Source of the DNA: an uncultured Pelagibacteraceae bacterium
GTDB lineage: Bacteria; Pseudomonadota; Alphaproteobacteria; Pelagibacterales; Pelagibacteraceae
Direction: 5' to 3'
NCBI GenBank assembly: GCA_902631265.1
Contig: CACOXX010000001.1
Location: 1 to 64,000 of the forward strand
DNA length: 64,000 nucleotides
This document shows positions 55,595 to 56,752 of the stretch, in pieces. Both the position numbers and the translations under genes were made by a program. The notes under the pieces are model-generated. The model was given only the letters and a program-made list of their open reading frames with translations. It was not told the DNA's origin and made no database searches. The stretch's first letter is position 1. Every line of letters starts with the position of its first letter.

Positions 55595-56115
55595 TATCTG
55601 CTTATTGAACCTTGGTCTCTTATCTTTTTTTGTAATTGCATAATCCCGTATAATAAAGCCTCAGCTGAGGGAGGGCATCCTGGTACATAAACATCAACTG
55701 GGACAACTCTATCGCATCCTCTAACAACAGAATATGAATAATGATAGTAGCCACCACCATTTGCGCAGCTTCCCATAGATATCACATATCTTGGTTCAGG
55801 CATTTGATCATAAACTTTTCTTAACGCGGGAGCCATTTTATTAGTTAAAGTTCCAGCAACAATCATTACATCTGATTGTCTTGGTGAAGCTCTTGGTGCA
55901 GCTCCAAATCTCTCAAGGTCATATCTTGGCATAGATGTTTGCATCATTTCTACTGCACAACAGGCAAGTCCAAATGTCATCCAGTGCAACGAACCTGTTC
56001 TAGCCCAGTTTACCAAATTATCTAAAGAAGTTGTTATAAAACCTTTATCCGCAAAATCTTTTGCAAGTTGTTTAAATTCTTTTGGAATTTGATCTTCTTT
56101 CTCTTTTAAGTTCAT
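55594..56115 (-). CDS. nuoB: NADH-quinone oxidoreductase subunit B
   Basis: [48 protein letters not shown]. Track start 56142; MNLKEKE at 56115 gives an ATGA overlap with nuoA. Confidence 0.96.
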
Positions 56116-56486
56116 TCCCAGTCCAAAGCCCCTTTCTTCCACTCATAAATAAATCCTACAGTTAAAATAAACAAAAATATCATCATTGACACAAAGCCAA
56201 ATATTCCAATTTTTCCTAAAGAAATTGCCCATGGAAAAAGGAAGGCTATTTCTAAATCAAATATTATAAATAATATTGCCACTAAATAAAATCTAACATC
56301 AAACTCCATTCTGGAATCATTAAAAGGTTCGAAACCACACTCATAAGCAGATAATTTTTCCGGATCAGGGTTTTTAGGCGCAAACACAAAATTTAGGAAA
56401 ATGAACCCAATACTTAGAAGTAGAGCAACTCCAAAAAATATAATAATTGTCAGATAGTTATTTAAAAAATCTCCGTACATATTCAT
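56112..56486 (-). CDS. nuoA: NADH-quinone oxidoreductase subunit A
   Basis: [41 protein letters not shown]. Confidence 0.96.
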
Positions 56487-56566
56487 TTATATATAATCTT
56501 TTTAATTAAATGAAAGTGCAGTTAAGTCACGTTATTGGGGGCTAATTTGTTGAAAGATTTGTGTTA

Positions 56567-56583
56567 TTGATAATTATTATCAA
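56567..56583. promoter_or_regulatory. Perfect 17-bp palindrome matching the Fur-family 7-1-7 operator
   Basis: TTGATAAT-T-ATTATCAA; inner 15 bp = TGATAATnATTATCA; lies between tRNA-Asp and nuoA. No T-run follows it on the transcribed (minus) strand. Confidence 0.6.
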
Positions 56584-56588
56584 AAAAC

Positions 56589-56665
56589 TGGCGGGAGTGA
56601 CGGGACTCGAACCCGCGACCTATCGCGTGACAGGCGATCGCTCTAACCAACTGAGCTACACCCCC
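56589..56665 (-). tRNA. tRNA-Asp(GTC)
   Basis: Minus: GGGGGTGTAGCTCAGTTGGTTAGAGCGATCGCCTGTCACGCGATAGGTCGCGGGTTCGAGTCCCGTCACTCCCGCCA; full cloverleaf, 7-bp acceptor (one G-T), encoded CCA. Confidence 0.97.
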
Positions 56666-56676
56666 ATTTCTAATTT

Positions 56677-56752
56677 TGGTGGGCGGTAAAGGACTCGAAC
56701 CTTTGACCCCCTCGGTGTAAACGAGATGCTCTACCAACTGAGCTAACCGCCC
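56677..56752 (-). tRNA. tRNA-Val(TAC)
   Basis: Minus: GGGCGGTTAGCTCAGTTGGTAGAGCATCTCGTTTACACCGAGGGGGTCAAAGGTTCGAGTCCTTTACCGCCCACCA; anticodon loop TTTACAC, encoded CCA. Confidence 0.97.

Follow-up and report, generated by a model that had tools for sequence, protein, structure and literature searches.

Very probably, Fur docks at a 17-bp palindrome upstream of the complex I (nuo) operon in this Pelagibacteraceae genome. We put the probability at roughly 0.7 that it is the operator by which an iron-loaded Fur dimer would control nuo, with activation as the predicted outcome. Both Fur as the binder and activation as the sign of control are inferred from comparative sequence analysis of the 64,000-nucleotide stretch of DNA (hereafter, the window) and of related genomes.

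The preliminary description of this DNA had reported a perfect 17-bp inverted repeat, and both its sequence (TTGATAATTATTATCAA) and its coordinates (56567-56583) are exact. Arms of 8 nt lie on each side of one central base. We annotated this stretch, without assigning a strand, as a putative Fur-type operator on the basis of shuffles, conservation and matrix scores; it consists of the 7-1-7 inverted repeat TGATAATNATTATCA and one flanking pair. As had been proposed, the TGATAATNATTATCA core is a perfect match to the 7-1-7 consensus of the Fur family, and the TGA-N9-TCA spacing is also present in the 17-mer. The 17-mer has TTGAT-N7-ATCAA and not the TTGAT-N4-ATCAA of an FNR-type box. The location given earlier is right as well: the site is 81-97 nt upstream of nuoA, counted from the ATG at 56486 on the minus strand, and lies between tRNA-Asp and the nuo operon, both of which are on that strand. 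The order on the minus strand is tRNA-Val (TAC; 56677-56752), tRNA-Asp (GTC; 56589-56665), the palindrome, a promoter-like region and nuoA (56112-56486), the first gene of the complex I operon. The tRNAs were called by ARAGORN and as Rfam tRNA, nuoA was taken from the ORF list and from relatives found by tblastn, and the ORFs after it were named nuoB, C, D, E and F from their sequence and order. The site starts 5 nt beyond the CCA end of tRNA-Asp.

Palindromes as such are not informative in this DNA. The window has 28.5% GC and contains four perfect 8-1-8 palindromes, whereas shuffled versions contained a mean of 4.57 and a maximum of 10, so we rejected the significance of the palindrome in itself. 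Matches to the 17-mer with up to three mismatches numbered 8 in the window versus 3.4 expected, which is only a mild excess. The classical 19-bp Fur box is matched at 16 of 19 positions at 56563-56581 and was set aside as non-discriminating because one other place in the window scores equally. The 7-1-7 Fur core TGATAATNATTATCA occurred in none of 100 dinucleotide shuffles of the window.

To follow the site in relatives, we collected NuoA homologs from contigs of named genomes by tblastn and from 60 related genomes, which yielded 101 distinct upstream regions; the tRNA-Asp/nuoA order is common to 72 of these. The conservation of the palindrome, which had been suggested as a check, is borne out: a degenerate 7-1-7 site, TGANAANNNTTNTCA, is present in 38 of the 72 SAR11 tRNA-Asp/nuoA spacers compared with a mean of 0.04, and at most 1, in shuffled spacers. 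The site stays while the other upstream sequence of these spacers diverges. Sites in other regions, for example L185, L042, L203 and L206, are one step from the TGANAANNNTTNTCA pattern, and the single mismatch in the nearest relative, L185, affects a key position (TGAGAATGATTATTA). The site is missing from about half of the SAR11 spacers, being absent or decayed in many lineages, and one single-contig genome (G012) encodes Fur and has no site at nuo (L200). When mapped on a NuoABC tree, the state of the site is clustered and needs 12 changes, indicating that the site was lost or regained repeatedly. The nuoA regions that we examined from another family of the order had neither such a tRNA-Asp nor the site.

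We also searched 61 genomes with the pattern TGAKAAYNRTTMTCA and read the flanking genes. Sites of this pattern precede nuoA in the window and in L005, L118, L172 and L174, and they precede fbpA/sfuC, which encodes a periplasmic iron-binding protein. They are also found before rubrerythrin, in the family where the rubrerythrin gene follows irr, and in one genome each before the FTR1 permease (L116) and iscR (L180). Thus, sites related to the one in the window do precede iron genes across genomes, a second check that had been suggested. A Fur box was upstream of fbpA in all 46 rows that we read, representing about 40 distinct loci, with some boxes having one mismatch. In the genome that the window comes from, fbpA is preceded by two boxes 16 bp apart (L162 1501-1531). 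Such pairs, 16 bp apart, occur before fbpA/sfuC in many SAR11 genomes, often after a TGCGAC motif (L214-L243). Many genomes of the genus to which the window belongs have a gene for a LysR-family regulator immediately upstream of fbpA (L162 575-1465 and relatives). The fbpA that bears a Fur box has a di-haem oxidoreductase gene (PF06537) beside it in another family of the order (L093, L166), and in L166 this oxidoreductase gene has its own box nearby.

With a broad pattern, the window's own genome has 15 sites versus 3 for a reversed-pattern control, and the only intergenic ones are at nuo and the fbpA pair. No sdh or acnA site was recognized among the intergenic sites in the part of this genome that is in the assembly. 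A Fur-like box over the start codon of hemB in the same genome (L155 1501-1515) is also seen in L177 and L183; we set hemB aside as a target because this box, which overlaps the start codon, owes part of its sequence to coding constraint (ATGATTATCA). With nuo excluded, a matrix made from sites at iron genes ranked the palindrome first in the window at 20.3 bits, and the next match in the window scored 12.3, or 8 bits less. The best score of the same matrix on 60 shuffles was 19.7 bits. The motif-bearing genes agree with the transcripts raised in iron-limited Candidatus Pelagibacter ubique, where sfuC increased 16-fold and transcripts for Fe-S assembly and rubrerythrin also increased; that study makes no mention of nuo or NADH genes (PMC2864753).

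These data bear on whether the palindrome is an AT-rich chance repeat with no function in this genome. The window has as many 8-1-8 palindromes as its shuffles and the nearest relative has a mismatch, as chance would predict, but neither the recurrence of the site in just over half of the spacers nor its independent match to a matrix made from iron genes would be expected from chance, and we regard this explanation as highly improbable. The conservation of the site and the occurrence of the same motif at iron genes support the iron- or metal-dependent control of complex I that had been proposed from the window.

Because the site is a perfect inverted repeat 5 nt beyond tRNA-Asp, we considered whether it is a terminator or processing hairpin of that tRNA with an accidental likeness to a Fur box. 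The fold of the site is unremarkable (z -0.66). The terminator scan called no intrinsic terminator at the site, where the stem is AT-rich and the T-run comes before the repeat and not after it, and Rfam found only tRNAs at the locus and no other RNA family. Among 40 sites, the bases at positions 4 and 12 are T-A in 21, T-C in 9, T-T in 6 and G-A in 2, so that 17 of the 40 have a mismatch there (T-C, T-T or G-A), and at positions 7 and 9 there is a C-A mismatch in 11 of 40. These variants break pairs without compensation, which argues for a protein site and not an RNA stem. They correspond to the half-sites GATAAT, GAGAAT and GAAAAT, as expected of Fur boxes. The same motif also occurs at iron genes where there is no tRNA. 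On these grounds we rejected an RNA hairpin or terminator, which has a very small chance of being correct.

We next consider which protein would bind. In most relatives there are up to three proteins of the Fur family, which NCBIfam models place as Fur-like, Irr-like and Zur-like, each scoring below the curated cut-off of its nearest model. The Fur itself is present in most relatives, members of the window's genus among them. The best PDB matches of the relatives' Fur are 5fd5/5fd6, which we take to be rhizobial Mur, and Magnetospirillum Fur (4ray and kin). Lys15, Tyr56 and Arg57 of Magnetospirillum Fur read DNA (PMC4506495), and the matching residues are kept in the alignment, as are an ATVYRTV recognition stretch and the loop lysine. 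In the assembly of the window's own genome, which is 72% complete, we found no fur gene and saw only a Zur-like gene. The most likely regulator is nonetheless Fur proper, rather than Irr, Mur or Zur. Elsewhere in the alphaproteobacteria, Irr is a haem-responsive regulator of iron-using genes. Most relatives have an Irr-like protein, and irr adjoins the motif-bearing rubrerythrin gene in one family of the order, so binding of the site by this second Fur-family protein deserves consideration. However, the motif belongs to the GATAAT type of Fur boxes and is found in front of fbpA, a classic target of Fur, while Irr boxes are of a different type (TTAGAA-TTCTAA). We therefore think that Irr is improbable as the binder.

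Downstream of the site, relatives share GTGAC-N7-CACTT followed by TATATA or TATAAA 36-39 nt after GTGAC, and this spacing holds even in lineages with some 100 nt of additional leader. Conservation of these elements despite the longer leader suggests that they are the nuo promoter. In the window, the conserved element GTGACTTAACTGCACTT, comprising GTGAC and the likely -35 region, is at 56514-56530 on the minus strand, where it is the single exact match; the likely -10 region (TTATATATAA), placed by conservation, is at 56487-56496 on the same strand. The promoter-like element is kept in nearly all SAR11 relatives that have the tRNA-Asp/nuoA order, including most of the lineages that have no site. 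Over the likely -35 (56514-56530, minus strand, in the window; L009-L049) there is a GTGAC-N6/7-(G)CAC element that is conserved more widely than the Fur site. It looks partly dyadic (GTGAC-N6-GTCAC in L011) and may be bound by a second regulator. In many lineages only a few bases separate the end of the likely -10 (56484-56496 in the window) from the nuoA start codon and, if this -10 is placed correctly, the nuo transcript would be leaderless or nearly so in these; other lineages have a nuo leader about 100 nt longer.

The centre of the site is 60-95 nt before the inferred nuo -10 (about 84 nt in the window). Measured from this -10, the site is upstream of the polymerase footprint and off the -35 and -10 regions. 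This is the arrangement found in Fur-activated genes of Neisseria and Caulobacter, and activation is favored for this reason. It is unlikely that Fur instead acts as a repressor of nuo, or as a block to transcription running on from the tRNA operon upstream, with nuo then rising in iron scarcity. That reading draws on the position of the site 3-6 nt after the CCA end of tRNA-Asp in several lineages, from which a bound protein could halt polymerase as it leaves the tRNA genes, and no intrinsic terminator was found after tRNA-Asp. Repressor sites normally overlap the promoter, though, and the distance from the site to the tRNA varies between 3 and 38 nt, yet the conserved promoter-like element remains downstream of the site. 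The known cases of Fur acting on nuo are also cases of activation (PMC6120978, PMC3788343).

If Fur activates nuo as we propose, then with sufficient iron Fe2+-Fur would bind upstream of polymerase and raise nuo transcription. Under iron scarcity, Fur would come off and nuo would be turned down, sparing iron from an enzyme with many Fe-S clusters. Loss of Fur would at the same time relieve fbpA/sfuC, an iron-uptake gene with Fur boxes close to its start. Distances between the site and the -10 fall in classes near 60, 71, 82-84 and 95 nt, with 7 class changes on the tree; these steps of about 11-12 bp suggest, in what is a weak statistic, a constraint to one face of the helix. We can offer only tentatively, and with rather less than even odds, a history in which complex I was in the ancestral SAR11 Fur regulon and was dropped from it repeatedly, in which lineages differ in cutting iron-rich respiration when iron is scarce, and in which the site shifts by about one helical turn against a fixed promoter. 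If that is true, such shifts would point to activation by Fur from one face of the helix.

Fur activation of nuo is of a known kind, with precedents in Caulobacter and Neisseria. In Caulobacter, nuoA-N is bound and activated by Fur (PMC6120978, citing da Silva Neto 2009; PMC3751524). The Fur control of nuoA-N, sdh and acnA in Caulobacter crescentus resembles what we propose in having an alphaproteobacterial Fur, the same target operon and a site upstream (PMC6120978, PMC3751524). It differs in that direct binding and activation with iron are known there from EMSA and expression, while our case is built on sequence, and in that sdh and acnA are Fur-controlled, whereas a site for neither was recognized among the intergenic sites in the assembled part of the window's genome. 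Another difference from Caulobacter is that the SAR11 relatives have Irr-like and Zur-like proteins as well. In Neisseria meningitidis, where nuoA, norB and aniA are Fur-activated, a Fur box is likewise upstream of nuoA, about 100 bp before the transcription start (PMC3788343); however, this is a betaproteobacterium, and we claim no common gene order around the site. A Fur box is also predicted upstream of nuoA-N in another alphaproteobacterium, Gluconacetobacter diazotrophicus (PMC9368920), but that is a matrix prediction in one genome, whereas the site described here is conserved across species.

Within SAR11, HTCC1062 had been searched before, and no classic Fur boxes were found (PMC3090418). 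Hogle (2016) reported that SAR11 7-1-7 Fur boxes always precede Fe3+ ABC transporters and FTR1 (PMC4771312). We recovered the same 15-bp 7-1-7 motif in the same bacterial group at fbpA and FTR1 but, unlike in that report, we found it also at nuoA, at rubrerythrin and, in one genome, at iscR. In the open-licence literature, to which our search was limited, complex I is not described as a conserved Fur target of SAR11.

SAR11, which rank among the ocean's most abundant bacteria, are regarded as having little gene regulation. If the conserved Fur box at complex I is what it appears to be, iron supply would also set the respiratory make-up of these cells. Our results suggest that SAR11 would tune iron-costly complex I to iron supply, as Caulobacter and Neisseria do, and the differences between lineages would offer a ready comparison of site-bearing and site-free strains in iron-poor waters.
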